Made by a program: the position numbers and the translations under genes. This document shows, one piece after another, positions 46,835-64,000 of a stretch of 64,000 nt of DNA (position 1 is the first letter of the stretch; each line of letters starts with the position of its first letter). The DNA is taken from NCBI RefSeq assembly GCF_900102265.1, contig NZ_FNBH01000001.1, positions 1,488,001 through 1,552,000 of the forward strand, written 5' to 3'. The stretch comes from Epilithonimonas hungarica. Its GTDB lineage: Bacteria; Bacteroidota; Bacteroidia; Flavobacteriales; Weeksellaceae. The notes beneath the pieces were generated by a model, which saw only the letters and a list, made by a program, of their open reading frames with translations, was not told the origin of the DNA and did no database searches.

Positions 46835-46963
46835 AGCTAAATTATTTCCCGATACAGAAAGTATAAAGGCCAGTATTAATAATTGTTTACAAAGTTATAG
46901 TAGCAAATATGTAGCAAAACCTCAATAAATAAAGGAATATCATAGGTCAAAGAAAGTCAAAAA

Positions 46964-47923
46964 CTACATTTTGAATTGGTACTCGGTAAGTCTTTGTTCC
47001 CCAAATTTAAGCAAAATTTCATTATCAACCGCCCACTTCAAATCCCGGCTTGCAGTAGGCGCAGAAATATTTTTAAAGTTCTGCAAATATTCCTTTCTAC
47101 CGAATCTTGAATTACCCACTTTTTCTTTAAATAAAGCAACTCTTTCTTCCGTATTGAGTATTTTGTTCTGAGATTGCAAAAGTTGCTCTAAAGCCTCTAA
47201 AATAAGCCTCAACATAAAAGTGATGAATGGAGTTGAATTTCCGCTTTTATCAGATTCCGAAAGTCTGGTATAATACTCTTTCTGATTTTGTTTTATCAGA
47301 CTTTCAACTGGGAGAAATTCAAATACAGGATATTGCTGCATTAAAATCAATGTCTGCCATAATCTGCCCATTCTTCCGTTTCCATCCACAAACGGATGAA
47401 TGAATTCAAATTCATAATGGAAAACGCAACTTTTAATCAGAATTAAATCCCCATCATTTTTAAGATACTTAAATAGGTCTTTCATCAATCCGTTGACCAT
47501 TGTTCCGCTTGGAGCGAGATGTTCAATTTTTGAGCCTTTTACGATACCGACATTGGATGTTCTCAATTTACCTGCATTATCTATCAAATTCTGCATTAAT
47601 ATTCCGTGAGCCTTTTCTAAATCTTTAATCTGATATGGATTAAATTGTCTCAAATGTTCATACACTTGAATTGCATTTTGAACCTCAATAATATCCTTTT
47701 GTGGAGCGATTACTCTTTTATGTTCTAAAAGTGCACTAATCTGTTCCTCCGTCATTGTGTTACCTTCAATTTCTAAAGAGGATTGAATCGTTTTAATTCT
47801 ATTTTTCTTTCTTAATTCGGTAGTTGGTTTGTATAAATGATTAGCATTAATCTCTCCTATCTTTTCAGAGATAGAAGCTATTAACGTTATAATATTGTCG
47901 GTAATTGTATAAGGTGGCTTCAT
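46964..47923 (-). CDS. Fic-family protein (AMPylation-type enzyme)
   Basis: This 319-residue protein has an N-terminal Fic_N region with the inhibitory helix motif SxxxEG (SLEIEGN, Ser49/Glu53), a Fic core with HPFVDGNGRMGRLW at residues 176-189 (catalytic His176), and a C-terminal winged helix (about 260-319; RKEYLQNFKNISAPTASRDLKWAVD). Fic enzymes transfer AMP or related groups from a nucleotide onto target proteins; the class II-type N-terminal inhibitor keeps them off. A pair of perfect palindromes over the start region suggests autoregulation through its own winged helix. It follows the defence operon by 48 bp. Confidence 0.93.
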   Translation of the reverse strand: MKPPYTITDNIITLIASISEKIGEINANHLYKPTTELRKKNRIKTIQSSLEIEGNTMTEEQISALLEHKRVIAPQKDIIEVQNAIQVYEHLRQFNPYQIKDLEKAHGILMQNLIDNAGKLRTSNVGIVKGSKIEHLAPSGTMVNGLMKDLFKYLKNDGDLILIKSCVFHYEFEFIHPFVDGNGRMGRLWQTLILMQQYPVFEFLPVESLIKQNQKEYYTRLSESDKSGNSTPFITFMLRLILEALEQLLQSQNKILNTEERVALFKEKVGNSRFGRKEYLQNFKNISAPTASRDLKWAVDNEILLKFGEQRLTEYQFKM

Positions 47924-47926
47924 TTA

Positions 47927-47956
47927 TGATAGTATCATTTGATAGTATCAAATATA
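47927..47956 (-). promoter_or_regulatory. Tandem palindromic operator with -7 box before the Fic gene
   Basis: The 11-bp perfect palindrome TGATAGTATCA occurs twice (47927-47937 and 47940-47950), 13 bp apart. On the minus strand TATATTTG (47956-47949) forms a -7 box just upstream, so the palindromes cover the expected transcription start, 4-27 bp from the ATG. No -33 TTG was found at the standard spacing. Confidence 0.65.
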
Positions 47957-47971
47957 GGAAAATACTTTATA

Positions 47972-48964
47972 TTAATTCGATTTACTAATATTAAAACTGC
48001 CTGATTCAAAAGTAAAATTTATAACCTCATCTCTAATACTACTCCTTTCGGAATGTAAATCAATGCTTTCAAACCTATAGTTCACTGTTATTGGCCTGTC
48101 TGAGCCTTTGTGTTTTTCAGAATCAACATTATAAATAAACGCAGGGTATAATTCAAGAATTGGGGACTTTCCATCTGATTTAGGATAATCAAAAGACTCG
48201 GATAAAGGCAAATAGATCTGAGCTACAATATTAGCAAAATTTACAACCAAAGTTAATTCAGGATGAAAGTCCTTATCTGTAAAGATTTTATTTGCTTCAT
48301 ACAACTGAACAGAGGGCTTACCAAATTTTTTACGTGTTAATTTTGTAATAAACAATGTTGAGAAAAACACAATTTCAGTATTTTCATTTTGTAACCAATC
48401 AAATAACAATTGATATTTCTGTACCTTACACTGAGGAAGGAAAGAAAGAGCTATTTTGAGTAATGCTTTATATACATATATCGGTTTTATTGCAGGATTT
48501 CTGAAACGTATAGACATAGTTTTGTTTTCTACATCTACTTTATAATCATCCAAAGAATTTAGATAAAGGATGATTTTTCCGTCATCTGTATATTTTAGAG
48601 ACGTTCTTGTATTTTCATCTTCATTATCTTTCCTTGATTGAAAATCAGGGATTTTCTTTTTGCCTTTTACTCCTACAACTGATAAATATGGCAGGAAGAA
48701 TTTAGATAAATGGCTTTCATACTTGCTGAATTTTTCATTACACGAATCACATTCATCATAGATAACAAGATTATTTTGCCCTAACAATTCAGGACAGGCG
48801 TGAGCAATTTTTTTAAAATAAACTTCGTTTTCATTTTTCCCACAAAATCTGCAAACCCTTACATTGGGTAAATTATCAGGCAAAGTTTCAGAAGAACCGA
48901 TTAAAGTATAAACTTCATTAAAGGAATTTCTAAACTGATGAATGTTATTTTTCGGAAAATCCAT
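47972..48964 (-). CDS. HNH-type zinc-binding endonuclease-like protein
   Basis: This 330-residue protein has an HNH_5-like domain near the N-terminus: CRFCGKNENEVYFKKIAHACPELLGQ (first Cys pair 35/38 and a His in KIAHACPELLG), then DECDSCNEKF with the second Cys pair. The rest (about 95-330) is a mixed domain without recognised motifs. In other defence loci such HNH proteins cut nucleic acid or serve as sensors. It is the last gene of the eight-gene operon; its start overlaps the end of the AIPR gene by 20 bp, so the two are coupled. Assignment as nuclease is by motif and not certain. Confidence 0.8.
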   Translation of the reverse strand: MDFPKNNIHQFRNSFNEVYTLIGSSETLPDNLPNVRVCRFCGKNENEVYFKKIAHACPELLGQNNLVIYDECDSCNEKFSKYESHLSKFFLPYLSVVGVKGKKKIPDFQSRKDNEDENTRTSLKYTDDGKIILYLNSLDDYKVDVENKTMSIRFRNPAIKPIYVYKALLKIALSFLPQCKVQKYQLLFDWLQNENTEIVFFSTLFITKLTRKKFGKPSVQLYEANKIFTDKDFHPELTLVVNFANIVAQIYLPLSESFDYPKSDGKSPILELYPAFIYNVDSEKHKGSDRPITVNYRFESIDLHSERSSIRDEVINFTFESGSFNISKSN

Positions 48965-51287
48965 ATTTTTTTACTTTTCCCAAATTCAGTTTTGCAATCG
49001 CTTTGTTTCTGTCTGTTAGTGGTTTGCGTTCTTCTGCAAGTTCATTCATAAACGTATATTCAAAACCTTTCAGTCGTTTGTTTCGTTTATCCCACTGAAC
49101 TATTTTCCGAATAAGTTCAAGTGTTATTTCTGCTTGACTTTCTTGCTTTTTAGGTGTTTCAGGAAGATTGTCTATATCAAATAAAATTTCAGGTGCTTTG
49201 TCAATTACAACATCTATTATTTTCAGACCATTTGCAATTTCATTGTCCAAAAGTTTATTGTTACTTCTGATTCTACCTGCGATTGTAAAGACTACATTCT
49301 GCATATTGGCAGACAAATTCTGTGTTTCACTTCCCCAATTTTCAATCTTTTTCCAAATTTCGTAAGGAATGGATTTGATTTTTTCGAGGTTTTCTTCTTT
49401 TTCTTGTTGTTCGGCTTCGTCTGATGAAATTAAGTTTCTTTTTACAGATGTTTTTTCATTAACGAAATCATCTTTTATAGAATCATAATCTAAATCAAAA
49501 TCCTGTTGTTTTACCATTTCCCAGCAGACTTCTTTTCTTGCCCACATTTCAATCAATGATTCAGAACTGTTTGTTTTTAGGAAATCGTCCATTTTTATCA
49601 TTAAATTATACAAGAAAGCATTCAGTTCATCGGAAACACTCTGATTTTTCCAGATTTTGTATAGGTCAAGTTTATAATCAATTTTAAAACCAAGATATGT
49701 AATTGCATAAGGTACTGTAATAAACCTCAAATCTCCGATTGCATTAGGTTTTACTCCATATAACTTTTCACAGGTTTTGTAAATAATAGCTTTTGCAATA
49801 GCATCTTCATAATAGATGTTATTGTTTTCAATTTTTGCATTGGTGTTGTGCAAAATAAACTGGTTATAGTTTTTGACATTCTTGATTACAAAATGAGGTG
49901 CTACAACTAATCTTTTGCCATCGTAAACTTCTTGATAAGCATTAATATATTTTGCCAACTGTTCTTTAGTAAACATCTGATGTCTTGGGTGTTTCAAGTC
50001 AAATGCTTTTTGTCGTGCTCTTGTAAAACCGTCTTTCAGCCTTGCATTTTTATATTGTCCTCTTGCTCTTTCATAGAACCATTTTGTTTGTGTCGGGTTC
50101 TTTTCGGAATGCGGTGTTACGATAGTTCTCGACAGTTTCTCGAAGTGAATATGGAAAGGTCTGTTACTGCTCAGGTCTGCAACAGAAACTTTATTTTGGG
50201 TATTAGCATATTCCGCAATCCGTGATACTATTTCTCCGAAGTTTTCTTTGTTTTTGACAACAGAAAGTTTAACCTGTACAAAGATATTGGAAACGTCGGC
50301 TTTATCTTTTTTGAATGTGTGATAAATAGAAGCCGTCGTTTGACCTCCGTTTACAATCTGTAAATCACTTACTTTTGAAATAATCAACCCTTTTCCCTGA
50401 CTGTCTTTTTCGAGTTCAATATGGTTTGCTGTTGCGGCAATTCCGTTATTGAAAGCAAGAAACATTTGAGGTTCTTTTAATATCGTTGTTCGGATTCCTT
50501 TATTGATTTTTCCTGCAAACTGTAAAAATGAACGCACATTTTGCTCTAACAAACGTGAACCAAAGCGTTCATAAATATTTGCCAGGGCTGTTCCTGGCAT
50601 TATAGCCAGATATGATTTGTAATCTTCATTTTCAGAAGGCGATTCAATACAAGGGATTTCAAAACCATCAGCTTTAAAATCCAGTTCAATAGGGATGTGA
50701 GATTTTTCAGTAATGTTGTAGAGATAATTCAAATCTACAATTCTCGTATAAACAGAAAAACTACTGATTGAATCTGACATGGGTGCATCATTGGGAAAAG
50801 TTCCATCTGTAAGAATAATTGCATTTACCCTTACAAGGTTTTCTCTCAATTCCTGACTTGATGCCAGCTCGTTTGCTAATTGGAAAATGTCTGATGATTC
50901 TTCAATTTCGTTTACATAATCTTTGTAAATACCTTTTCTGAAAAAATTCAGGATTCTTTTTTGTGCAGTTTCAACTTCAGCTGAGGTAGTTCTTGCAGGT
51001 TCTTCTGTTCCCTTTAAAACCGTGATAAACAAATCAAGTGTTTCGTAATTATCAGAAATAGAATAAGCATTTATCTGGTGTTGGTTTTTAGTTCCGATTC
51101 CCTTTTTATCGTAAGCCAAGCGTACATTTTCAGTTTCTCCGGCAGAAGCTAATAAATCAACAGCTATTTGTGTGAAAATCTGCTCGGTATTTCCTCCGTC
51201 TTCTTCACTTAGTTGAGTTGCTCTTATATCCTGAACAAGATTTTGATAGAATTTTAAAAGTTCTATATTTTCCGAAACTGTACTCAT
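48945..51287 (-). CDS. AIPR-family protein
   Basis: This 780-residue protein contains the AIPR domain (PF10592), named from abortive-infection phage-resistance proteins. The core runs from SRLLEQNVRSFLQF (about 244) through the conserved AFNNGIAATANHIE and LQIVNGGQTTASIYH with NGGQTT at 313-318. A helical C-terminal part (about 560-780) is rich in charged residues. Molecular activity is not established; members occur in defence neighbourhoods with Z1 ATPases. It starts 3 bp after the PD-(D/E)XK gene and overlaps the HNH gene by 20 bp. Confidence 0.9.
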   Translation of the reverse strand: MSTVSENIELLKFYQNLVQDIRATQLSEEDGGNTEQIFTQIAVDLLASAGETENVRLAYDKKGIGTKNQHQINAYSISDNYETLDLFITVLKGTEEPARTTSAEVETAQKRILNFFRKGIYKDYVNEIEESSDIFQLANELASSQELRENLVRVNAIILTDGTFPNDAPMSDSISSFSVYTRIVDLNYLYNITEKSHIPIELDFKADGFEIPCIESPSENEDYKSYLAIMPGTALANIYERFGSRLLEQNVRSFLQFAGKINKGIRTTILKEPQMFLAFNNGIAATANHIELEKDSQGKGLIISKVSDLQIVNGGQTTASIYHTFKKDKADVSNIFVQVKLSVVKNKENFGEIVSRIAEYANTQNKVSVADLSSNRPFHIHFEKLSRTIVTPHSEKNPTQTKWFYERARGQYKNARLKDGFTRARQKAFDLKHPRHQMFTKEQLAKYINAYQEVYDGKRLVVAPHFVIKNVKNYNQFILHNTNAKIENNNIYYEDAIAKAIIYKTCEKLYGVKPNAIGDLRFITVPYAITYLGFKIDYKLDLYKIWKNQSVSDELNAFLYNLMIKMDDFLKTNSSESLIEMWARKEVCWEMVKQQDFDLDYDSIKDDFVNEKTSVKRNLISSDEAEQQEKEENLEKIKSIPYEIWKKIENWGSETQNLSANMQNVVFTIAGRIRSNNKLLDNEIANGLKIIDVVIDKAPEILFDIDNLPETPKKQESQAEITLELIRKIVQWDKRNKRLKGFEYTFMNELAEERKPLTDRNKAIAKLNLGKVKKYGFSEK

Positions 51288-51290
51288 AGT

Positions 51291-52289
51291 TTAGGGCTCT
51301 GTGGTATTAAAAACTAAATCTTCATCAATTGTAAACGAAGTGCATTGCGATAGGATAATAGAGTATTTCACATCTCCAACACCAATTCTGATGTCGTTTT
51401 CTTCAATTCTTGGAAAATCATTTTCTACTTTGTAGAAAACATCCTGACGAATAAAATAACCGATTTCGTTATAGAGGTTTCTTTGTAAATCGAAATATCC
51501 TGTTTCGTAAAGTTTGCTTTTGAATTTATTCAGGGCAATGATTTCTGATTGTAGTATTTCACTGATGGAATCTACAATATTGTTCAGGGTTTCTCCCGAA
51601 TTCTGCATTCTTTCCAGTGAAATATGATATAGAAACAAACTTCCTATGTTGGTTGTATCTAACTGTCTTTCACTGCTGATATGTACTTTCTGATGATTGT
51701 TTCCGTGTGTGGTTTTTACTTCAACTGCCCAGTTCTGACTTTGAAAATCTCTTACCTGCATTTCTGTACCAATCCAAGTATTGACAACTGCAAGATGATT
51801 ATTTTTTGACTGCAAAAACTTTCTCAAAAAATAAAGTTCTCCGTATAAACCTCTTTGTTCTTCTGCTGTTAATCCCTGTAATCCAATTTTACTGAATAAA
51901 GATTTCCATTTTTCAAACCGGTTCAGTATTTCTTTGACTAACTTTCTTTCGTTGGTTTCATTAGCAATACTATTAATCAAGTCCTCACACAAAACTGTGA
52001 AAATATCTTTGTGCTGAAAATTGAGTAGCTTAAAAACCAATACATTCTTTGCTGTTTCAGTAGGCGAGGGATATAAATCAACTTCTATTTCCTGTAAGTT
52101 TGAGAAATTAGAAATATTTACTTCAATAGCATCACTTATCGAAACACAAATACACAATAATTTTTCAGGGTGTTGCATAGCAACATATACATCAGGCAAA
52201 ACTGAACCTGAATATCTGCGAAGCAATAAACCTTTAGTGAAAGATTTATCATTGGCTAATTCTTCCCATATCTGATTAATCTTCGTCAT
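51291..52289 (-). CDS. PD-(D/E)XK nuclease-like protein (DUF4420)
   Basis: The start MTKINQIWEELANDKS at 52289 is favoured for a small overlap with the Z1 gene (another ATG lies 12 nt upstream). Residues below are counted from that upstream ATG. The central motif set is EEQRGLYGELYFLRKFL (Glu155 region), RDFQSQNWAVEVKTTHG with Asp185, Glu194 and Lys196, the D-x8-E-x-K arrangement of PD-(D/E)XK nucleases. The N-terminal 130 residues lack recognised motifs. It probably is the cutting subunit working with the Z1 protein. Fourth gene from the 3' end of the operon is Z1, directly upstream and overlapping. Confidence 0.85.
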   Translation of the reverse strand: MTKINQIWEELANDKSFTKGLLLRRYSGSVLPDVYVAMQHPEKLLCICVSISDAIEVNISNFSNLQEIEVDLYPSPTETAKNVLVFKLLNFQHKDIFTVLCEDLINSIANETNERKLVKEILNRFEKWKSLFSKIGLQGLTAEEQRGLYGELYFLRKFLQSKNNHLAVVNTWIGTEMQVRDFQSQNWAVEVKTTHGNNHQKVHISSERQLDTTNIGSLFLYHISLERMQNSGETLNNIVDSISEILQSEIIALNKFKSKLYETGYFDLQRNLYNEIGYFIRQDVFYKVENDFPRIEENDIRIGVGDVKYSIILSQCTSFTIDEDLVFNTTEP

Positions 52290-55116
52290 CTTCAATATCA
52301 TCTAAGTTGTCATCAATATCAAATAATGGTAGTAACTGCTGATGTACCGCATACGAAACAGAATGGCTGTATTGACTTTTCGGAAAACTAACAGCAAAAC
52401 CAACAATCGGTTCACTTCCTGCTGGCATCCTTGCATTTTCTGCATCAATTAAATACAAAAGCAATAATGGATTTTTAGGACTTCTGAACTCGTTTCTTAC
52501 AATTTCTCCTTTCGGAAAATCATTTTTGTATTCACTATTTTGATTTCTGAAATAGGCTTTTGTTCTTTCCAATGCTCTGTCGTAATCCTCTTTACTCAAA
52601 TCAAAAAATTCATCTTTTGGTCTTATTATGTGATTTTTTATGATATGTAAATTGTGTTCATCATTCTTATTTTTGTCGTTAGAACGAATTACGCAACCAA
52701 CCTGATTAATTCCATTTGAAGCATTGAAATCATAAGAAGAATTTGCATTACTTTTAGTTACTAATGCCACACTCCAATTGGTCAGTTCGTTGCTTTTTAC
52801 CGAAATATCAATATAATCCAATAATTTGGACGGCTCTGTTTTTTTCAGGTTTTCAGAAACTTTGAAACGCTGGAAAAATGGTCTTACCAAATCTACAGGG
52901 ACATTTCTCCATAAAAAATGGTTGTGTCTTGTTTCAAATGATTCTGAAAGTGAATTGATGAGATTTTTAGTAACGTTTAAATTAGCACTAATTATAACTG
53001 GATTTTTCTGTAATTGATAAGATTCTACCAACCTGCCAGACCAAGAAACATCAATATTTACGGCTCTTCGGATTTTATTTGAAGCAGAAATTTGCAAAAC
53101 GCCTGGATGTGTTCTTACTCGTAAAGCATATTGTTCGGGTGTACTTCCAGCCACTTCCGACATATAATCAAATTCACTTCTTAATTCTTCGGAAGCCAAT
53201 GTTATATGACAAAACCATTCGTTCAGTTCTCGGCTTGTAAACAATCTGCATAAATCAACATATCCCGGTCTATAACCAAACCAGCGACCCATTTGCATTA
53301 AAGTATCGTACATTCTTGAAGCACGTAAGTAATAACTAACGGACAAGCCTTCTAAAGTCAAACCTCTTGATAGTTTATCTCCTCCGATTGCAATTACAGA
53401 AAGTCCATTTTTATGGTCAAAATAATTTAACGCATCTCCTGAACCTCCGTTAATTTCTTTTACTTCAATTTTTGCCACAGCATTGTGTAAATGTGGCAAA
53501 ACATCTTTCCAATCGTGAACACTTACCAAAGTATCAACATCAGGCATTGTATCGGAAATGGTTTGAGAAACTGTTTTATAACTTTTGTAAGTTTCGGTAA
53601 TTGTTTCCCCTTTGTATTCGTAAGAGTACTCTTTATCTTCCTCAAATGTTTTACGGATTTCGTCCAAGACTGACGGAATCTTCATTTCAATTCCTCTGCG
53701 ATAGAAATCAAAAGTATTTTCGACAAGTGTCTTAATATGAGCTTGCCAAACAGTATATCTACTAACGTGAACAAGCATTGAATTATGTACGTTGATTTGA
53801 CCTCTCAATCTTCTTATCGTACAGGTAAGAATAAAACACTTAATTGCTGTACGTAATGACTCAGGAAGTTCGCCTGGAAGCCTTACCAATCTTTTGTTAT
53901 CTTCTGATAATTGCTCATATTTTTCATTCTTTCTTAAAGCTCTGTGTCGATTTGGTATCAATTCTTTATAATCATCAACACGATTTACTATTGGTAAAAC
54001 TGTCTCGGATTCGTCTTCATCTTCCAAAACTTTAATTCCAAACACTTTTTCAGGTCCAACATAATTTGTTGGTGCAGGAATATTGATGATAAAATCCCTC
54101 GGAAATAAATCATCTTCCACAATTGGGATAAATATATTGGCAAATGGCGTAGCAGTATAGCCAACGTAACCACTACGGTCAAAGAGATTTAGTATGTTTC
54201 TGATGTGTTCGTTGATTCTCGTAGCTCTGTCATCATCTTTGTTGGTATTGATAGAAGCATTATCTGCCTCATCATCAATAAGTAATAACGATTTGTTTCT
54301 GATAACTTTTCTGCCATCAGGCAAGTCTTCTGTTTGTGCATTTAGCCATAAATAAAGCCTTTCAAGAACTTTGGAATTTTTCTTAACAACAGCAATTATA
54401 GGTTCAGAAGTGTTGAAATTGATACCCATTGAATTTGCGGCACCAGCTGTAAAATCTCCTTTATCCAAACTTGATGTAAGAGAGTGAGCAATGCCAATTT
54501 GGTCTAATTTTCCAACTCCAATAGTTACACCGTTTTTGTCAAATGCTCTTTGATGTTGCGTGTCAAAACCCAGAAACCCTTCATCTAAACGAAGTTGTGT
54601 TTGACTTCTCAAATTGTTATGAATACCAGCCAAAACAATAATCAATTTGTAACCAGCATCAGCAGCTTTACAAATTAATCCTGTGTAGTTTGATGTTTTT
54701 CCAGACTGAACCTGTCCAACGACTAAACCTCGTTTACTGACTATTATGTTTTCTGTAGGGTTAAAAAGCCCGTCTAAAGTTCTGTCTGTAAGTTTATCAA
54801 TCTGATTTAAAACTACATCAGAATAATTTTTTTCAACTTGTAAATAATCTCTGTATCTGTTCCAAAAATTCCATTTTATACCCGCTTTTACATCTCCTAT
54901 CCACGGTTTCCTTCTTTCTTCTGCTTCAATAATTCGGAAGTCGTCCATTCTGATGTTATATAAAGATTCAACTTCACGAACCAGAAAATCTCTTTCAATC
55001 TCCTTATATACAGGAATCATTAAAGCACTATCAACAGCTTGCTCAATCTGTTGTTTTGTTATAGAACCAGTTGAGGGTAATAAGGTTCTGATTGTTTTTA
55101 TGACTTGTTGTACCAT
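52276..55116 (-). CDS. Z1-domain helicase-like ATPase
   Basis: This 946-residue protein has the Z1 domain (PF10593) of the superfamily II helicase-like type. Walker A is GQVQSGKTSNYTG (134-146), the DEAD-like Walker B is LLLIDDEADNAS (about 278-289). A second RecA-like half ends with GGDKLSRGLTLEGLSVSYYLR and QMGRWFGYR, the arginine-finger motif VI. The C-terminal 230 residues are unassigned. Such proteins presumably translocate or remodel DNA in defence; a helicase activity has not been shown to my knowledge. It lies 5 bp after the GHKL ATPase gene and overlaps the PD-(D/E)XK gene by 14-26 bp. Confidence 0.9.
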   Translation of the reverse strand: MVQQVIKTIRTLLPSTGSITKQQIEQAVDSALMIPVYKEIERDFLVREVESLYNIRMDDFRIIEAEERRKPWIGDVKAGIKWNFWNRYRDYLQVEKNYSDVVLNQIDKLTDRTLDGLFNPTENIIVSKRGLVVGQVQSGKTSNYTGLICKAADAGYKLIIVLAGIHNNLRSQTQLRLDEGFLGFDTQHQRAFDKNGVTIGVGKLDQIGIAHSLTSSLDKGDFTAGAANSMGINFNTSEPIIAVVKKNSKVLERLYLWLNAQTEDLPDGRKVIRNKSLLLIDDEADNASINTNKDDDRATRINEHIRNILNLFDRSGYVGYTATPFANIFIPIVEDDLFPRDFIINIPAPTNYVGPEKVFGIKVLEDEDESETVLPIVNRVDDYKELIPNRHRALRKNEKYEQLSEDNKRLVRLPGELPESLRTAIKCFILTCTIRRLRGQINVHNSMLVHVSRYTVWQAHIKTLVENTFDFYRRGIEMKIPSVLDEIRKTFEEDKEYSYEYKGETITETYKSYKTVSQTISDTMPDVDTLVSVHDWKDVLPHLHNAVAKIEVKEINGGSGDALNYFDHKNGLSVIAIGGDKLSRGLTLEGLSVSYYLRASRMYDTLMQMGRWFGYRPGYVDLCRLFTSRELNEWFCHITLASEELRSEFDYMSEVAGSTPEQYALRVRTHPGVLQISASNKIRRAVNIDVSWSGRLVESYQLQKNPVIISANLNVTKNLINSLSESFETRHNHFLWRNVPVDLVRPFFQRFKVSENLKKTEPSKLLDYIDISVKSNELTNWSVALVTKSNANSSYDFNASNGINQVGCVIRSNDKNKNDEHNLHIIKNHIIRPKDEFFDLSKEDYDRALERTKAYFRNQNSEYKNDFPKGEIVRNEFRSPKNPLLLLYLIDAENARMPAGSEPIVGFAVSFPKSQYSHSVSYAVHQQLLPLFDIDDNLDDIEDDED

Positions 55117-55121
55117 TTACT

Positions 55122-56600
55122 TTAATTTAAAAATTCAAGAAAGTGAACAAAATTGTTGAAAGGCTCTATATTTGCAATGATTGCTTTTGCTTGTTCATCA
55201 ATTTTTCCTTGTCCAATAAGGTTTGAATACATTGCCTGCATTGTATTTCTTATTATTTCATGGTCAATCCCCTCAAAAGGTTTGCCTTGCAATTCCGGAA
55301 CTTCACTTTCTTTAATAAAAATTGATTTGGTCGGTATTGTTTCTTCAATAAACTTTATAAGCATTTCAATTGCTTTATTCGGTTCATTTCGAGCTTCTTC
55401 TTTTACTTTTTCAATAACAGGATGTTCCCGATTAATTTTATAAAACCATTTATCTCCTCGTTTGTGGTCAATCCATAAAGGCACAAATTTTTGCCCGACA
55501 ATTGGTTTTACATTTTTGCCTTTATGCCTGTAAACTTCTACGGCTTGGGCTCTGACTTTCATAGCATAAGCCTTTATCAGCTCACGAAAAATCAAAGGTG
55601 GTCTTGCTACTGATTTTTTAATATCAATCTGCCATTCGGCATCTAATGTGTTAGGTAGTTCAATCTGTATTCTTGTCAGTTTGTAATGTTCTTCCTTTCT
55701 GAAAAGCCCTAACCAATCTCCTGCTAACAAAAGTCTTTCGTTTCGGTAGATATAAAAACCTTGCTGTTCATTCCAGCCTTTCGCCCCCTCAGCTTGTTTG
55801 TATTTTTCTTCAGAAATTTTAGTTTTATGAGGTAAAACATAACCTTCTATTTTTACCAGTCCGTTTTGTATTTTTTCTTCTGGAAATATTTGGGTTGATG
55901 GCTCATCAAGTAAAAAAGGATTCCAGGGTTCTATTTTATGGCCTTGAAAATAGATATTGATTTTTCCACTTTCCATAAACTTATGAAAAACCATTGATAA
56001 ATGCTTTTTCACTAGCTCCATAATCAATAGAAATTTATCAAGAGCCTTATTGTCATCTTGTTTAAAGTTTTTGACAACTCTGTCAATATCATTCCAAATT
56101 ACAATGGTTCCTGAAACTAAATCAGATAAATCTTTTTCAAATTTTTCATCAGGTCGATATTTGATTAACTCCCATTTTCCTGTTTGATTTACAAAGTCTA
56201 AATCCCAAGTCCAGTAAACGGAATTATAATCTGATTTTTTACTTATAACAGTTAGTTTTCTTGCTTGCGAAAAAGAAGCCGTTTTTAAACCTAAACCAAA
56301 TCTTCCTAAATCTTTACTTTCTCTGTCCTGTAATGGATTTTTACTTCCTGGTCTCATTGCCTGAATTAATTCAGGATCATTCATCCCAAAACCATCATCT
56401 TTGATAGAAAGCCAAGTTTTAGAACCTAACCATTCAAAATTTACCCAAATATTTTTTGAATTTGCAGAAATCGAGTTGTCGATAATATCTGCGATAGCTG
56501 TTTCAATATTATATCCAATTGCCCGAAAGGTTTCAATCATTGATGAAGCTTCGGGTACAGCAGGAACAGTTTTATATTGGGAATAGTCAATTTCAGTCAT
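55122..56600 (-). CDS. MORC/MutL-like GHKL ATPase (paraMORC type)
   Basis: This 492-residue protein has an N-terminal GHKL ATP-binding fold with motif I TAIADIIDNSISA (Asn42; the usual catalytic Glu is Asp38), motif II DDGFGMNDPE (DxGxG), and motif III GRFGLGLKTASFSQA. It continues into an S5-like domain around GTIVIWNDIDRV. The C-terminal half (about 260-492) is unassigned. Homologues of this type were predicted computationally to function in restriction-modification systems together with superfamily II helicases and nucleases. Presumed clamp or motor controlling restriction. Gene spacing is 2 bp upstream and 5 bp downstream. Confidence 0.88.
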   Translation of the reverse strand: MTEIDYSQYKTVPAVPEASSMIETFRAIGYNIETAIADIIDNSISANSKNIWVNFEWLGSKTWLSIKDDGFGMNDPELIQAMRPGSKNPLQDRESKDLGRFGLGLKTASFSQARKLTVISKKSDYNSVYWTWDLDFVNQTGKWELIKYRPDEKFEKDLSDLVSGTIVIWNDIDRVVKNFKQDDNKALDKFLLIMELVKKHLSMVFHKFMESGKINIYFQGHKIEPWNPFLLDEPSTQIFPEEKIQNGLVKIEGYVLPHKTKISEEKYKQAEGAKGWNEQQGFYIYRNERLLLAGDWLGLFRKEEHYKLTRIQIELPNTLDAEWQIDIKKSVARPPLIFRELIKAYAMKVRAQAVEVYRHKGKNVKPIVGQKFVPLWIDHKRGDKWFYKINREHPVIEKVKEEARNEPNKAIEMLIKFIEETIPTKSIFIKESEVPELQGKPFEGIDHEIIRNTMQAMYSNLIGQGKIDEQAKAIIANIEPFNNFVHFLEFLN

Positions 56601-56602
56601 AG

Positions 56603-57109
56603 CTAATATCCAATTATCAGAATACCTTTTAATGGCAGTTTGAGTCTTCCTGACACAAAAAGCGTGTCAAAAAATGTGATTACATTCTGGAAATCCGGAT
56701 TCTTCCTATAAGTAACTCTTACTGCAATAACCAAATAGTCAACATCAGTCATCATACAAGCCTGAAATAAATCTTTCAGAAACTGATAATTCGTTACAGC
56801 CCTACCTGCCTCAACTTCAATAACTGTTCTTGTAATAGGATTAAACCCATCTGCATCAAAATATTTTTCCAGCTTTCCATTAATTCCGAATAAAACAGGA
56901 ACTTTAATTTTATCAGCATTTTTTTTACTTTTTTCTATAGTAAATCCCAAGTTTTCCAATCCTGATGCAACTTCATTCAGGACATCATTACTGCTGTGCT
57001 GAAAATTACCAGAATTAATTTTCTCAAGCTTCTGAGAAAATATACTGACGACGTTTTGCAGATGGTCTGGTATTGCTTTACTTTTTGGGAAATACTGAAA
57101 TTTTATCAT
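56603..57109 (-). CDS. Small restriction-endonuclease-like protein
   Basis: This 168-residue protein has a possible nuclease core in YFDADGFNPITRTVIEVEAGRAVTNYQFLKDL: Asp85 or Asp87 on one strand and Glu98-x-Glu100 on the next, followed by a helix. This is an ExE arrangement as in BamHI rather than ExK. Helices flank it on both sides. The second strand set (YLVIAVRVTYRKN) is typical of the fold. It overlaps the methyltransferase gene by 4 bp (ATGA) and precedes the GHKL ATPase by 2 bp. It is likely the enzyme that cuts DNA lacking the methylation made by its neighbour. Assigned from pattern only. Confidence 0.65.
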   Translation of the reverse strand: MIKFQYFPKSKAIPDHLQNVVSIFSQKLEKINSGNFQHSSNDVLNEVASGLENLGFTIEKSKKNADKIKVPVLFGINGKLEKYFDADGFNPITRTVIEVEAGRAVTNYQFLKDLFQACMMTDVDYLVIAVRVTYRKNPDFQNVITFFDTLFVSGRLKLPLKGILIIGY

Positions 57110-58359
57110 CTAGTCAGCATACTTTTTATTTTTTCAGCTATTTTTTCAGCCATCAAAGGTGGAACTGCATTACCGATTTGTTTTAAAGCTGCTGTCCGAC
57201 TTCCTTCAAAGAAATAATCATCAGGAAAAGACTGTATTCTTGCGGCTTCTCTTACAGTTATAGAACGGTTTTGTTTTTTATCAGGGTGAATATAATAATG
57301 ACCGTCCATTGCGATGTGTGCAACTACTGTATGCGAAACGCCTTTTCCGTTTACAACCTGAAAACGGTTTGTAAATGATTGTACGTTATTATGTTTTATT
57401 AATCGTGTTGGTAGGTTTGCATAGTTCAAACGCTTACCGTTATTCCATTCATCAACAGCAATGCGGTAAATTTCCAAGTCATTTTCGTTGTTTGGTCTGG
57501 CAATGTGTTGAGTTACTATCTCCAAGCCGTTTCTTATACCTGATTGTTTTAAATATTCATTTGCTGGTTTATAATATTCGACTGCATTTAAAGTTCCTTC
57601 TCCGTTTTTCAGAGGTTGTAAGTCAGAGAATAAATCTTTTAGAACTTCATATTTGGGTTCAGTTTCATCAAAATTCGGATAAGTAAAACCTAATTCTTTT
57701 TTCCAACCGATGATAATTACACGTTTCCTATCCTGCAAAACACCAAAGTTTTTTGCATTAAGCACTTTGTACCTGTTTTTAGGTAAGGCTAATTCATAGC
57801 CAGCACTTCTTACGGCTTTGAATATATTTTCTAAATGAACACCATTTTTTGCAGACAATATTCCCGGTACGTTTTCAAATACAAACATATCGGGTTGGTA
57901 TCTTTTTAAAAATTCAACATAATATTTGTACAAGAAATTTCTCTGGTCTCTTTTCATTCCGTGTGGATCTCTTGCTCTTCCAGCGACAGAATATGCTTGA
58001 CAAGGTGGCCCACCTATAATTAAATCTACATTTCTGCCGTTTAATTCGTTGTCAATCTTATCAAAAATCTCATCTAAAGTTTCTTTTGAAATTTCTTTAT
58101 TGATAACAGAATTTATAAGATTTTCAGGTACTTTTTTCCAAAGTTCTTCTTTATTTTTTGTTTCAGATTTTAGATAGTCGTGATATATTTTTGCTTTTTT
58201 GTTTTCTTTTAACCAATGGTAAGCAGTTCTTGTTTTTACAGTATCACAAGCATCTTTATTCATTTCTACGTGAGCAATTGGATTAAATCCGGCACGGATA
58301 AATCCTTCCGAAAGTCCACCTGCTCCTGCGAATAAATCTATGTAGTTCAATTCTTCCAT
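57106..58359 (-). CDS. dcm: DNA (cytosine-5-)-methyltransferase
   Basis: This 417-residue enzyme has all main m5C motifs in order: I DLFAGAGGLSEGF (8-20), IV GGPPCQAYSVAG with catalytic Cys120, VI FVFENVPG (159-166), VIII QDRKRVIIIG (209-218), a variable target-recognition region (about 260-330), IX SITVREAARIQSFPDDY and X QIGNAVPPLMAEKIA. It transfers a methyl group from SAM to C5 of cytosine in a specific DNA sequence, marking self. It is followed by a coupled small endonuclease-like gene and preceded 6 bp upstream by Vsr, a repair nuclease that corrects T:G mismatches caused by deaminated 5-methylcytosine. Recognition site unknown. Confidence 0.95.
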   Translation of the reverse strand: MEELNYIDLFAGAGGLSEGFIRAGFNPIAHVEMNKDACDTVKTRTAYHWLKENKKAKIYHDYLKSETKNKEELWKKVPENLINSVINKEISKETLDEIFDKIDNELNGRNVDLIIGGPPCQAYSVAGRARDPHGMKRDQRNFLYKYYVEFLKRYQPDMFVFENVPGILSAKNGVHLENIFKAVRSAGYELALPKNRYKVLNAKNFGVLQDRKRVIIIGWKKELGFTYPNFDETEPKYEVLKDLFSDLQPLKNGEGTLNAVEYYKPANEYLKQSGIRNGLEIVTQHIARPNNENDLEIYRIAVDEWNNGKRLNYANLPTRLIKHNNVQSFTNRFQVVNGKGVSHTVVAHIAMDGHYYIHPDKKQNRSITVREAARIQSFPDDYFFEGSRTAALKQIGNAVPPLMAEKIAEKIKSMLTR

Positions 58360-58365
58360 ACTTTA

Positions 58366-58794
58366 TCAATTAATAACCGGCTTTTGTATGTTTTCTAAAA
58401 TATTATTTAATGTTATCTCTTGTCTTCCTTTTTTCAGTTGACATTCATAAACTATTATTACATTCCAACCATCATTTTTTAACTGAGTGATATTTTTTTC
58501 ATCTCTTTTTTTATTTCCTTCAATCTTATCTGTCCAGAATTCTGTCCGAGTTTTTGGTATAACAAAATATTTACAATTTTCGTGTCCGTGCCAGAAACAC
58601 CCGTTTACAAAAATGACTGTTTTAAATCTGGGCAAAATTATATCTGGCTTCCCCGGTAATTTTTTATCATGTAACCTGTAACGCAGACCGTTGGCAAACA
58701 AAAATTTCCTTACCAGAAGTTCCGGTTTTGTATCTTTTCCCCTAATCCGGCTCATATTATAAGTCCTAACCTCTTTAGAATGTATATCTGCCAT
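58366..58794 (-). CDS. vsr: Very short patch repair endonuclease
   Basis: I take the ATG at 58794 (MADIHSKEVRTYNMSRIRGKD), because from it the catalytic Asp51 in PGKPDIILP and the His69 in CFWHGHENC fall at the numbers used for E. coli Vsr. Family blocks include KFLFANGLRYRLHDKKLPGKPDIIL and VIFVNGCFWHGHENC, plus the late TEFWTDKIEGNKKRD. Vsr nicks DNA next to T:G mismatches that arise by deamination of 5-methylcytosine. It is the first gene of the operon and directly precedes the m5C methyltransferase, the usual pairing. Confidence 0.95.
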   Translation of the reverse strand: MADIHSKEVRTYNMSRIRGKDTKPELLVRKFLFANGLRYRLHDKKLPGKPDIILPRFKTVIFVNGCFWHGHENCKYFVIPKTRTEFWTDKIEGNKKRDEKNITQLKNDGWNVIIVYECQLKKGRQEITLNNILENIQKPVIN

Positions 58795-58994
58795 TTTACA
58801 AAAATACAAAATATAATGATTTAAGCATATTTGTCTAACAATTTTTAATTAATTGATTACCAAGAAATTAAAATCAATTCTTTAATATAATTATTGTGTT
58901 TTAAAGTTTTCAAATATCAAATGAATATTTCTTACATTTAGCTAATATTTTTTTATAAAAAAGAGGTAGAGTCATAAATTTCCTTTGTCACATG

Positions 58995-60050
58995 CTATTG
59001 ATTAATTTCCAACACTTCACAATCATAACTTACTTTAGCGGTAACAACTCCAATCACTAATGCTCCATAAGTATTTTTAGTACGATATTTCATTATTACC
59101 AGAACATAATCATCCATTCTTTTGAAAGCCGTATCAATATGCTCAAAACTGCTTGGGTCTGGCAAATTAGGTTTAACAAATCTCACTAAATTTTTACAAG
59201 AACCATCATAACCACTGATACATTCTTTTTCCCAATTAGCTTTTTTGTTGGTTAGTTCCTGTGCATATCTTACCTCATCTTGTTTTTTCTGTGTATCTGC
59301 CAAAGTTTTCTCATACATTTCTGTCTGTATTTTGATGAGGTTTAAATTGGCATACTGTGACAAATCAAAGTTTGGATCAGAAATTTCCTGAACATTTTTT
59401 TTATCATTCTCAAACACAGCTACAGATTTTGTAACCTCAAATTTTTTATTTACAGTAAACTTGATAAAATATTTTTTCAGTTGTCCATACTCTTTTATAG
59501 GCTTAATATATTTTTCTGTAGATAAAATTTTGTTTTTATTGTTTTCAAGGAATAAACCATAAGTAATTGAGCCGTCTTTCAAAGTATCTAAAGGTTTATA
59601 ATCTTTGGAATAGTCATCAAAATAATAATAAGATTTATCTAATGTAATTTTTGATTCAAAAATATCATCCCACTTTTCAAGTAACTTTAGATTGTTAAGA
59701 TAAGGCTTATTCTTGTTGGCTTCTATGTATTTACTAATTGCATCACTATTTTTTTCAGCTTGTAATTTTCCTTGGCTTTGAATTGCCGAAATTATAATTG
59801 CAAGAAAAAAAACTCCCATTAAAGAAATAATTCTTGTAGGTCTGTGCTTCCAGAATGAAAGATTTTGTTTCAATTTTTCCGAAACCGGAGGAAATAGTAA
59901 AACGCCCACAAGAATGATAAGCAGACCACCAAGAAAGGAATTTTTGAAAATTGTAATTAATCCTGCAATGATGAAAGATATTCCAAATATTACTTTGAAA
60001 AAATTTAGAATTAGCCTTGCTGAAGCTTTTTTTGAATTAAGAGTTGACAT
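58995..60050 (-). CDS. Membrane protein of unknown function
   Basis: This 351-residue protein has three N-terminal hydrophobic segments (about 18-33, 38-55 and 72-92; FFKVIFGISFIIAGLITIF and FLGGLLIILVGVLLF). A long soluble region (about 95-265) has no recognised domain. A C-terminal module (about 280-351) contains CKNLVRFVKPNLPDPSSFEHIDTAF and ends VTAKVSYDCEVLEI; this module also occurs in other bacterial proteins. It lies between the phage module and the defence operon with 185 bp and 287 bp gaps, so membership in either unit is not shown. Confidence 0.75.
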   Translation of the reverse strand: MSTLNSKKASARLILNFFKVIFGISFIIAGLITIFKNSFLGGLLIILVGVLLFPPVSEKLKQNLSFWKHRPTRIISLMGVFFLAIIISAIQSQGKLQAEKNSDAISKYIEANKNKPYLNNLKLLEKWDDIFESKITLDKSYYYFDDYSKDYKPLDTLKDGSITYGLFLENNKNKILSTEKYIKPIKEYGQLKKYFIKFTVNKKFEVTKSVAVFENDKKNVQEISDPNFDLSQYANLNLIKIQTEMYEKTLADTQKKQDEVRYAQELTNKKANWEKECISGYDGSCKNLVRFVKPNLPDPSSFEHIDTAFKRMDDYVLVIMKYRTKNTYGALVIGVVTAKVSYDCEVLEINQ

Positions 60051-60103
60051 ATAGATTAGATTTTAGTTTTAGAAACAAGAAAGGGTGTGAATCAACTTAC
60101 ATC

Positions 60104-60220
60104 CTTTGCTCTGGTTACTGGTATAACCCACTAAAGAAATGAAGAGAACACACCCCAGACTGGGGCGTCTTCACATTCCATTTTTCCTTAGTTTAAAATA
60201 TTACCAGTATTTGAGCAAAG
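60104..60220. other. Long imperfect hairpin, possible structured RNA or site
   Basis: The gap between the membrane-protein gene and the terminase gene holds nested inverted arms. They are CTTTGCTC (60104-60111) with GAGCAAAG (60213-60220), ACTGGTA (60117-60123) with TACCAGT (60202-60208), ACTAA with TTAGT, GAAGA with TCTTC, and CCCCAG (60153-60158) with CTGGGG (60160-60165) at the tip. The rod has internal loops. Strand and role unknown. Confidence 0.6.
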
Positions 60221-60337
60221 AAAACGAACTGCTAACGCAATATCTATATGTTATTTACAACCTTTTAGTCTTATAGTTTTGTTTTTTAATTGTACGACAA
60301 ATATATAAAATTCACGAAAACTAAAGTTACTTTAATT

Positions 60338-61654
60338 TTAACGTCCTGCACTAGGAGGTATAGCCAAAATAGGCATTCCTCTATATTCTCTTACCCAGTT
60401 TGCATAAGCCAAGCTGTCTGCTAAATCAGGACTTTTGCCTAATATTCTTTTTATAGCATCTTTGCCTATTATCTTCACAGTCTTATCAGAATAAATCTCG
60501 TAAGTGATTGATTGTAATTCAAGTTTTAAGCCTTCATTGTTGAGGTTTCCGATGTTTCCATTCACAAAATCATTCCTGAGTTGCCAATAAACTTGAGAGC
60601 GCAGATTATGAGGTTTGAATGTCTCTTCTTGAAAGTTCTCCTCTGGTTTTGCTCCTCCTGAAATCTCAATAACGTTGTAACCTTGTTGTTTTAAACTATC
60701 TATCACTCCAGCACCTACACCAACGCTATCGATACCTACATAATTAGGGTCAATCTGATAATCATTGATTAATTGAATAGTTCTTGTCACAACTTCCGTA
60801 ATGGCTGTTTGTAGGTAACTCTCTATCAATTCTATGTTTCCGTTTTTAAGAATAGTAAAAACTGTTCTGTCATCTCCATATCTGGCAACATCCACACCCA
60901 GCGAAGTTACCTCTGTACCTGAAATTTCATACGCACTTTTTAAAATGGCTTCGCTAGGTATTAGCTGATTGATTGAATCCACTACACTCCAATCGCCATA
61001 CAGGTATTTTCTAAGTAATTTCGGATTGTCTTTAAAAGTAGCTTTTAAATTCTGAACGTACTCACTGTTTTCATCATAATTATCGGTCGTTACACTTTGG
61101 ATATAAACTTCATCAATATTCTTTGACTGAATGAAAGTAGGGATTAACCAACAAGCCTCCGGGTTTGATGTCAACCTTCCTTCATATCTAGGTTTCTCTC
61201 CATTAGGAAGAACCCAACGTAATCGAGTTTTGAGAAGATTATAAACATCAAGAGAGACCTCATTTGCTTCTTCAATACCGAACCATCCAATCTCTAACCC
61301 TTTAATTTTTTGCAAAAGTGGATCTTTTGCAATATTTGCATCTATGAAAATCAAAACAGAGTCATTGATAAAAGTAACTTCTAAACTTGTTTGATTGAAG
61401 CTTTTTATTATTTCCGGTGGACAAATGGATAGAAAAGTTACTAAAGTAGTTCTTCTCAAAACTGACAATTCTTTCCTGACAATGACCAATCTGTTACCCT
61501 TGAACATCATTGCATTTTTTATAGCTTCGGAAGTTAGAAACCACGATTTGCCTGCTCCAAAACTTCCTCCAAATAATAAATATTTAGCTCGGCATTTGTG
61601 AGCTTCTTCTTGCTTTGCTTTAGGAACGTAATATTTTGAAAAATCAATAATCAT
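60338..61654 (-). CDS. Phage terminase large subunit
   Basis: This 438-residue protein has an N-terminal packaging ATPase with Walker A YLLFGGSFGAGKSWFLTSEA (about 26-45) and VLIFIDANIAKDP as a Walker B region. A C-terminal RNase H-like nuclease domain begins SLGVDVARYGDDRTVFTI (about 252, with the first Asp) and has NYVGIDSVGVGAGVIDSLK. It is in the PBSX/T4-like Terminase_6 group. It drives DNA into capsids and cuts concatemers. The small subunit gene is 13 bp upstream on the same strand. No portal or capsid gene follows. Confidence 0.9.
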   Translation of the reverse strand: MIIDFSKYYVPKAKQEEAHKCRAKYLLFGGSFGAGKSWFLTSEAIKNAMMFKGNRLVIVRKELSVLRRTTLVTFLSICPPEIIKSFNQTSLEVTFINDSVLIFIDANIAKDPLLQKIKGLEIGWFGIEEANEVSLDVYNLLKTRLRWVLPNGEKPRYEGRLTSNPEACWLIPTFIQSKNIDEVYIQSVTTDNYDENSEYVQNLKATFKDNPKLLRKYLYGDWSVVDSINQLIPSEAILKSAYEISGTEVTSLGVDVARYGDDRTVFTILKNGNIELIESYLQTAITEVVTRTIQLINDYQIDPNYVGIDSVGVGAGVIDSLKQQGYNVIEISGGAKPEENFQEETFKPHNLRSQVYWQLRNDFVNGNIGNLNNEGLKLELQSITYEIYSDKTVKIIGKDAIKRILGKSPDLADSLAYANWVREYRGMPILAIPPSAGR

Positions 61655-61667
61655 AATAAAAGCTACT

Positions 61668-62051
61668 TTAATCCGGCACGTTACAAATGAATTTTACCTC
61701 TCCACTATGTTCAATCTGTACTTTATGCAAGCCTTGCAGGTTTGCAAGTTCTTTGTTGATTGAAACTGCCAGACGATAATCTCCCTCCTTTAGTGATTTT
61801 TGATAAAGCTCCTCGTATCTTCTGATAGCTTTGGCATAGTCATAATTTATATTTTTCTCTACTGATTTCTCAATCAGAAATTGTGCTTTAGAGAGATAAT
61901 TCTCAGCCATCCTCTTTTTTATTTGGAATTTTTCCGCACTAAAACGCAATATATCTTCTCTATTTTCGCCCTTTAAGAGTAGAGTGACTATCTCGCCTAT
62001 CCGTATTGCTATCTCTGACCTGTCTGCTCGGTCTCTCTTTTGCTGATTCAT
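61668..62051 (-). CDS. Phage terminase small subunit
   Basis: This 127-residue protein has an N-terminal helix-turn-helix (RFSAEKFQIKKRMAENYLSKAQFLI) and a helical oligomerisation region (IRRYEELYQKSLKEGDYRLAVSINKELANLQGL). A short C-terminal tail ends at SGEVKFICNVPD. This matches Bacteroidota phage terminase small subunits that recognise packaging-site DNA. It is coupled to the large subunit gene, 13 bp downstream. Moderate to high confidence on the basis of layout and neighbour. Confidence 0.83.
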   Translation of the reverse strand: MNQQKRDRADRSEIAIRIGEIVTLLLKGENREDILRFSAEKFQIKKRMAENYLSKAQFLIEKSVEKNINYDYAKAIRRYEELYQKSLKEGDYRLAVSINKELANLQGLHKVQIEHSGEVKFICNVPD

Positions 62052-62098
62052 CTTCTATTTAATTAATTATCCCATTAATTACCTTCACATTTTTTCCC

Positions 62099-62854
62099 TT
62101 ATTTAAAATGTTTTCTCATAGTTGAAAATTCAGGCTTTATAAAATCCGCCTCCACTTTTTTAAGGTATTTTTTTCCCTTTCTTAATCTCCCAATATTTTC
62201 TTCCGGATATTGATATCTATATATCATCAGATGTCTATTGGTGAGTTTATTGCCCTTCTCATCATAAAAATATGGTTGATTTTTCTTGACTGTAATTAAG
62301 CTTGCTTTTTCTGCTCTCTTCTTATAATTATTAGCTGTTGAAAAACTTACACCTAAACACTTAGCCAGATAACTTACAGGCAAAGTATAATAGCCTTTCG
62401 GATAAGAATAATGGCTCGTACTGGAATCTCCCATTTTTGACCCCGACCATCGTTTTCTATCTACAAAGCGTTTCTTCAACAAATAATAAATAACTACAGA
62501 TGCACAACAGAAATCTTTGAAATTTAAAAAATCTTCTGGTTCATATCTTACAGCCGATTGAGATTTAAACTTCAGCTTTTTACATAGTTGTTTATATCCT
62601 ATTATTCGTAATGATTGAATCTTATTATTAACGGTTATCCATTTCTTTTTAATGAGCCACTTCACACAACTCCTAACTGTTTTTCCATTAAGGCCTAAAT
62701 CTACAGCCCACGCTCCATATAATGAAGAATCATACTTTATATGACCACTTGAAATATGCTTGAGATAAACGTATATCAATAAATGGTTAACCTTACGATT
62801 AACTAAAGCATATTGACACACTTCCACGGGTATGGTGGTATATATTAACTTCAT
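62099..62854 (-). CDS. Phage-type winged-helix protein
   Basis: The start at 62854 (MKLIYTTIPVEVCQYALVN) is chosen over one 12 nt upstream. The 251-residue protein contains two DNA-binding-like segments. The first is near residues 45-80 (DLGLNGKTVRSCVKWLIKKKWI) and the second near 155-185 (YLAKCLGVSFSTANNYKKRAEKASLI). The winged-helix pattern with strongly basic remainder (KGKKYLKKVEADF) resembles replication-initiation or regulatory proteins of phages and conjugative elements. No exact family was recognised. Confidence 0.65.
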   Translation of the reverse strand: MKLIYTTIPVEVCQYALVNRKVNHLLIYVYLKHISSGHIKYDSSLYGAWAVDLGLNGKTVRSCVKWLIKKKWITVNNKIQSLRIIGYKQLCKKLKFKSQSAVRYEPEDFLNFKDFCCASVVIYYLLKKRFVDRKRWSGSKMGDSSTSHYSYPKGYYTLPVSYLAKCLGVSFSTANNYKKRAEKASLITVKKNQPYFYDEKGNKLTNRHLMIYRYQYPEENIGRLRKGKKYLKKVEADFIKPEFSTMRKHFK

Positions 62855-62900
62855 AGATGGAGGCAAATTAGATTTTGAAAATCTTTGCGTGAGTTTTGGC

Positions 62901-63200
62901 TTAATTTTTAAGTTTATTCAAGGAATAATTTATTGCCTCCTTTCTTAATTCTTCAATGGTAGCTTGAGGGTTTCGCAACAACCAGTTTTCAATTTCAACT
63001 TTGTTGAAGAATACATTTTTCCCATTAGGTTTGGAATGCGGGATTTCGTTTTTAGAAGTCAGTTTGTAGAGGTAAAGTTTAGAAAGTCCTGTAAATTGGG
63101 CTACCTCATCTATGTTTAGAACGATTTTGTTTTGTAAGGATTGAGCTGTAAGAAGTTGCTCAATTTTGTCAAGTCTTTGTTCAATACTTTGCGTTTCCAT
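62901..63200 (-). CDS. Excisionase-family helix-turn-helix protein
   Basis: This 99-residue protein has an N-terminal coiled-coil-like stretch (IEQRLDKIEQLLTAQ, 5-19) followed by an HTH_17 (MerR-like) domain: LNIDEVAQFTGLSKLYLYKLTSKNEIPHSKPNGKNVFFNKVEIENWL (about 28-74). Such proteins are excisionase or regulator subunits in mobile elements of Bacteroidota. It lies 46 bp upstream of the winged-helix gene and 79 bp downstream of the partial gene, all on the same strand, so they form one accessory module. Confidence 0.87.
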   Translation of the reverse strand: METQSIEQRLDKIEQLLTAQSLQNKIVLNIDEVAQFTGLSKLYLYKLTSKNEIPHSKPNGKNVFFNKVEIENWLLRNPQATIEELRKEAINYSLNKLKN

Positions 63201-63279
63201 ATTGATTATCTTTATTATGAAAACAAAAGTATAATGAAAGTCAATAATTAAAAGTTAGTAATAGTTAAGAATACCTACC

Positions 63280-64000
63280 TTAACTTTTCGCAATCTCTCT
63301 TACTTTGATTAGAATATTCTCTACATAGGATTTACCTCTATACTCTGTCTCTTTAGATTTAGAAACTGACAGCTGTTCAGGAGAAAAAGACTTACTTTTA
63401 CAATTTAGAAAGAACATTGACAGTAATGGGTATATATTCAAATTTTCAAATTTTATCTGAGTAAAGAGATTTACGAATTGTACTTCTGTCCCTTTCCATC
63501 TAATTTTTTTAATTACTTCTTGCGATGAAAAAATATTTCTAAAGTCAGAAAAGTTTACATCAATTTTTTCAGGATTCAAATTATCATATAGTAAGTTAAT
63601 TATTTCCATATTTTTTGAACCATAATTTAGTTTCAAAAATACCTCTTTTTCACTAGAAGAAAATATATAATTGTTCAAATATTCAACATATTCTCTAGCA
63701 TAATCAATAATCTCTTCATCAGTAATCTTTGATAAGTAATTTCCTGTTTCTCGAATTCTCTTTTTATCAAAAAACCAAAGCACAAAATCCTCTGCTCGAG
63801 GTATTGCTCCAATTTCATTTTTTATAAAACCATCAAGCCTTGATAGCTGTTCTGTAAAATCCATTTTTATTTTCTCTAAATCTTCATTAATGATTTTATT
63901 TGCTGCTTTCAATTCTTCATCAGAGAACTGGATATCTGCTAAACCCATTCCTAAACCGTCATTGGAATATGTCCCAAGTTTTAATTTTTTATTCTTGCTC
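63280..64000 (-). CDS. Unknown mobile-element protein (5' end outside window)
   Basis: The frame is open beyond the ATG at 63948 to the right edge without a stop, reading plausible protein (KKLKLGTYSNDGLGMGLADI), so the gene is probably cut by the window. The visible part is alpha-helical, charged and Phe/Lys-rich, with no recognised domain. It has a helix-rich start (FSDEELKAANKIINEDLEKI) and a late cluster KSFSPEQLSVSKSKETEYR. It lies upstream of the excisionase-like gene on the same strand and probably belongs to the same element. Confidence 0.7.
   Translation of the reverse strand, partial: SKNKKLKLGTYSNDGLGMGLADIQFSDEELKAANKIINEDLEKIKMDFTEQLSRLDGFIKNEIGAIPRAEDFVLWFFDKKRIRETGNYLSKITDEEIIDYAREYVEYLNNYIFSSSEKEVFLKLNYGSKNMEIINLLYDNLNPEKIDVNFSDFRNIFSSQEVIKKIRWKGTEVQFVNLFTQIKFENLNIYPLLSMFFLNCKSKSFSPEQLSVSKSKETEYRGKSYVENILIKVREIAKS

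Follow-up and report, generated by a model that had tools for sequence, protein, structure and literature searches.

Comparison with described systems

One described system that resembles the operon studied here is mzaABCDE, reportedly a system of Gao et al. 2020. Another is the third type of MORC operon of Iyer, Abhiman and Aravind (2008; PMC2292703), for which the available text gives a MORC protein with the motif GhXhhpXXRhl, an SF2 helicase with DThhQXuRhFG, a protein of restriction endonuclease fold with E-D-ExK motifs and, frequently, a cytosine methylase and Vsr; AIPR is named in the legend of its Figure 2. The present operon comprises eight minus-strand genes at 47972..58794 of a 64,000-nucleotide stretch of Epilithonimonas hungarica DNA (contig NZ_FNBH01000001.1, positions 1,488,001 to 1,552,000), here called the window. 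Tight packing, domain matches and motifs confirm the restriction/defence operon that a sequence-only reading had described at this place. The core belongs to a kind of system described before, in an arrangement that is new; a search of the open-licence literature turned up no experimental work on this gene set, in keeping with a remark of the same reading. Judged from their sequences, these tightly packed DNA-marking, DNA-cutting and ATP-burning genes on a mobile element probably serve phage defence. What the analysis adds is a division into core, exchangeable cassette and passenger, together with a predicted fold for a small protein.

The likeness to the third type of Iyer et al. extends, within the available text, to the MORC motif, the helicase motif, the methylase, Vsr and AIPR. 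That account is a prediction only and assigns HNH proteins to other MORC operon types, and the available text describes neither a BglII-type small nuclease nor the exchange of a cassette. The putative type II system described by Miller et al. (2022; PMC9523054) differs in that its available text names no Vsr, small nuclease or HNH protein and includes a putative transcriptional regulator, which was not seen in the window operon.

The ten proteins encoded at 46964-60050 were scanned with Pfam (operon proteins at E values up to 0.001) and PADLOC. By best PADLOC and NCBIfam models and open reading frame (ORF) order, the window operon encodes MzaB-, MzaC-, MzaD- and MzaE-like proteins in the same order as mzaABCDE. 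Unlike in that system, all four fall below the NCBIfam equivalog cut-offs, and a methylase and Vsr stand in place of the sigma factor MzaA; the Pfam scan of the ten proteins returned no sigma-factor domain. The PLD nuclease with a B3 domain that the available text gives for the CglI and NgoAVII restriction systems (PMC4267653) was absent from the Pfam scan of the operon. The sole scanned protein matching a DISARM model is the methylase; the nine others matched none, and DrmA, DrmB and DrmC were not found beside it.

A conserved core

The core starts with a MORC/MutL-like GHKL ATPase (55122..56600, minus strand; HATPase_c_3, 1.3e-32), which reaches 439 bits with the MzaB model against a cut-off of 850 and contains GFYIYRNERLL, matched by eye to GhXhhpXXRhl. 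It is followed by the MzaC-like protein (52276..55116, minus strand; PF10593, 2.3e-78), previously described as a Z1 ATPase, with 683 bits against a cut-off of 1500, intact Walker A and B motifs and an intact DTLMQMGRWFG that fits DThhQXuRhFG by eye. The third core gene (51291..52301, minus strand; PF14390, 6.1e-81) encodes a DUF4420 protein, a candidate PD-(D/E)XK nuclease in which D...ExK is seen in the alignment (MzaD-like, 129 bits against a cut-off of 420). The fourth is the MzaE-like AIPR protein (48945..51287, minus strand; PF10592, 1.4e-88; PF22879, 4.2e-37; 337 bits against a cut-off of 1050). Its last ~220 amino acids (48945-49607) are highly variable, with 12-32% identity per block to the related operon L021 and 37-80% in the remainder. 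As an impression by eye only, a clear D/ExK site was not evident in the aligned rows of the AIPR N-terminal domain.

Compared with L021, the window operon shows 53% identity in AIPR, 58% in the methylase and 79-84% in the other core genes, which prompted the idea of AIPR as a specificity subunit tied to the methylase. This idea was rejected, since L026 combines a methylase like that of the window (78%) with an AIPR like that of L021 (85%), the partial correlation between AIPR and methylase is nil (r -0.04), and the tree of AIPR agrees with that of the core.

The presence of AIPR also bears on an abortive or backup function, in which the core would stay silent until a phage disables the restriction-modification cassette or another trigger appears, whereupon AIPR and the nucleases would kill the cell. 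The name AIPR derives from abortive infection, according to a figure legend, and the available text on PARIS offers a precedent of a suicide system coupled to anti-restriction; however, neither Pfam nor PADLOC identified a toxin domain in the scanned operon proteins, and we consider such a function improbable.

An apparently exchangeable methylase cassette

Upstream of the core lie a Vsr-type very-short-patch endonuclease (58366..58794, minus strand; PF03852, 4.9e-33; TIGR00632, 145 bits against a cut-off of 97.85; FVNGCFWHGH intact in the alignment) and a 5-methylcytosine (m5C) DNA methyltransferase (57106..58359, minus strand; PF00145, 2e-66), whose GGPPCQAYS is intact in the alignment and whose top PADLOC model is DrmMII (586 bits). 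Co-occurrence was followed in 23 core operons. The methylase is present in the run in 20 of the 23; it stands at the head in 17 runs, and in 12 of these nothing but Vsr at most separates it from the MORC gene. The methylase part has the look of a module exchanged among related operons. L018 and L044 have a tandem pair of m5C methylase ORFs.

Its exchangeability on a conserved core, together with its retention in most operons, would suit a methylase that acts as the target-recognition subunit of the core, like Mod in type III systems, so that a swapped cassette changes marking and cutting together. A specificity switch at each swap was considered, but the ~418-aa methylases show no clear sign of one: in 12 comparisons with the window methylase the target-recognition region came within 10 points of the rest of the protein 11 times (L021, 53% and 61%; L016, 82% and 87%), and only L053 departs from this, with 42% in the target-recognition region and 63% elsewhere. 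The CglI methylase works alone, according to the available text (PMC4267653), and core operons without a head methylase exist. We therefore find a Mod-like role very doubtful.

The small nuclease candidate and its slot

Between methylase and MORC lies the gene for a 168-aa candidate nuclease of the BglII/BamHI type within the PD-(D/E)XK group, earlier labelled 'ExE' (56603..57109, minus strand). Structure modelling assigns it a predicted BglII/BamHI-type restriction-enzyme fold; identity to the type II restriction enzymes BglII, BamHI, BstYI and OkrAI is 9-15%.

The same slot, as judged from family matches and sequence patterns, is host to several unrelated nuclease types, in a minority of operons. 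L002 (Chryseobacterium lathyri) has the same 168-aa protein as the window, L015 a NOV_C protein (2.4e-15) and L043 an 85-aa ORF with no family assigned, while the slot genes of L018 and L044, which follow the tandem methylases, show an HNH-like CxxC/H/CxxC pattern by eye (Pfam returned none for L018). In L053 a NOV_C protein (4.5e-15) immediately precedes MORC with the methylase farther upstream, and in L019, where MORC was not detected, an HNH_2 protein (5.3e-13) follows the methylase.

Small-nuclease homologs are rare in the phylum, occurring in 3 of 395 genomes, the own genome included. The G204 homolog neighbours a short methylase ORF and an enzyme that looks HaeIII-like by eye; around that of L003, a metagenome-assembled genome of Pirellulaceae, no other operon genes were found in 20 kb; and that of G312 is broken. 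No relative was found on plasmids or in a pattern scan of a viral contig collection. A precomputed Pfam label, PF26497.1, is carried by 1 of 120 listed homologs and was not returned when 26 family members were scanned against the local Pfam copy.

The sequence-only reading had the methylase mark host DNA, the small endonuclease possibly cut unmarked DNA and the remaining genes form a second, methylation-sensitive effector. This reading is partly supported; the small nuclease as a fixed operon member does not stand, since only the window and L002 have it next to both methylase and core, L042 being left uncounted as the same C. lathyri locus. Further points weigh against a methylation-linked unit. 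The small nuclease is found in 1 of the 23 relatives and a gene other than Vsr fills the slot in 5 of the 17 head-methylase runs, so the small nuclease cannot be essential; searches with it gave no Foldseek match at E 0.001 or better and no sequence match in the PDB. L052 and L054 are, by annotation, sigma-factor MZA operons whose core has no methylase at its head, and the L047 run lacks a methylase altogether; methylation may therefore be dispensable for the core. The distances of methylase and core show no strong coupling; DUF4420 alone stood out in partial correlation with the methylase (r 0.25, p 0.027, one of four tests). The predicted AIPR structure is poor (predicted local distance difference test score, 67.5; predicted template modelling score, 0.43).

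An alternative is two independent neighbours, a type II restriction-modification cassette of Vsr, methylase and small nuclease next to a full MZA-like system, where the core senses phage regardless of methylation and the methylase guards only against its own nuclease. The separate histories of methylase and core, the other gene types in the slot, and L052 and L054, in which the methylase lies elsewhere with a restriction enzyme annotated next to it, all favour this. Against it stands the frequent presence of the methylase in the run, and where at most Vsr separates it from MORC, the only obvious partner of the methylase is the core. Two neighbours are possible but rather unlikely, and with moderate confidence we prefer one defence operon with a core and an exchangeable methylase cassette.

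An integrative element at mnmE

This operon is carried by an integrative element of ~18.5 kb at the mnmE 3' end, spanning 46842..64000 and continuing to about 65298 beyond the window, with mnmE at its right end. A 15-bp att-like repeat, spotted by eye, marks the left end (46842..46856, plus strand; TTATTTCCCGATACA), and its other copy, the mnmE 3' end at 65298 past the window (TTACTTCCCGATACA), differs by 1 mismatch; at <=1 mismatch no repeat hit arose in 20 mononucleotide shuffles of 34 kb. The element encodes a tyrosine integrase (64007-65137; PF00589, phrog_1), an AlpA-like helix-turn-helix gene (62901-63200) and a TerL-like gene (60338-61654), and no capsid or portal family matched among the scanned element proteins. 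It is possibly phage-satellite-like.

All eight same-genus genomes examined (L089-L096, of 22 others) carry an integrase homolog no more than a few ORFs away from mnmE; it is split into two ORFs in L094, and the genes behind it vary. L095 has two exact repeat copies 12.6 kb apart; six other mnmE pieces have a single copy and L093 none. The mnmE 3' end is likely an integration hotspot. The L016 operon of G021 shares a contig with mnmE, some 11 to 21 kb away, and an integrase adjoins mnmE; a second repeat copy was not found there at <=1 mismatch. In L042 a weak integrase match (46 bits) is located two genes past AIPR, so that the nearest relative may also sit on a mobile element.

The HNH gene and flanking genes

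Directly before Vsr, 58995-60050 encodes a 351-aa protein with a hydrophobic N-terminal part and a weak SieB match (0.0027) below the cut-off. One TAnnTTTG-like element upstream of Vsr was judged too weak for a claim. The HNH_5-like protein (47972..48964, minus strand), whose gene closes the operon on its 3' side, is a probable passenger. A Fic protein gene (46964-47923; PF02661, 1.2e-19; PADLOC SoFic, 164 bits) lies inside the element, 48 bp from the HNH gene.
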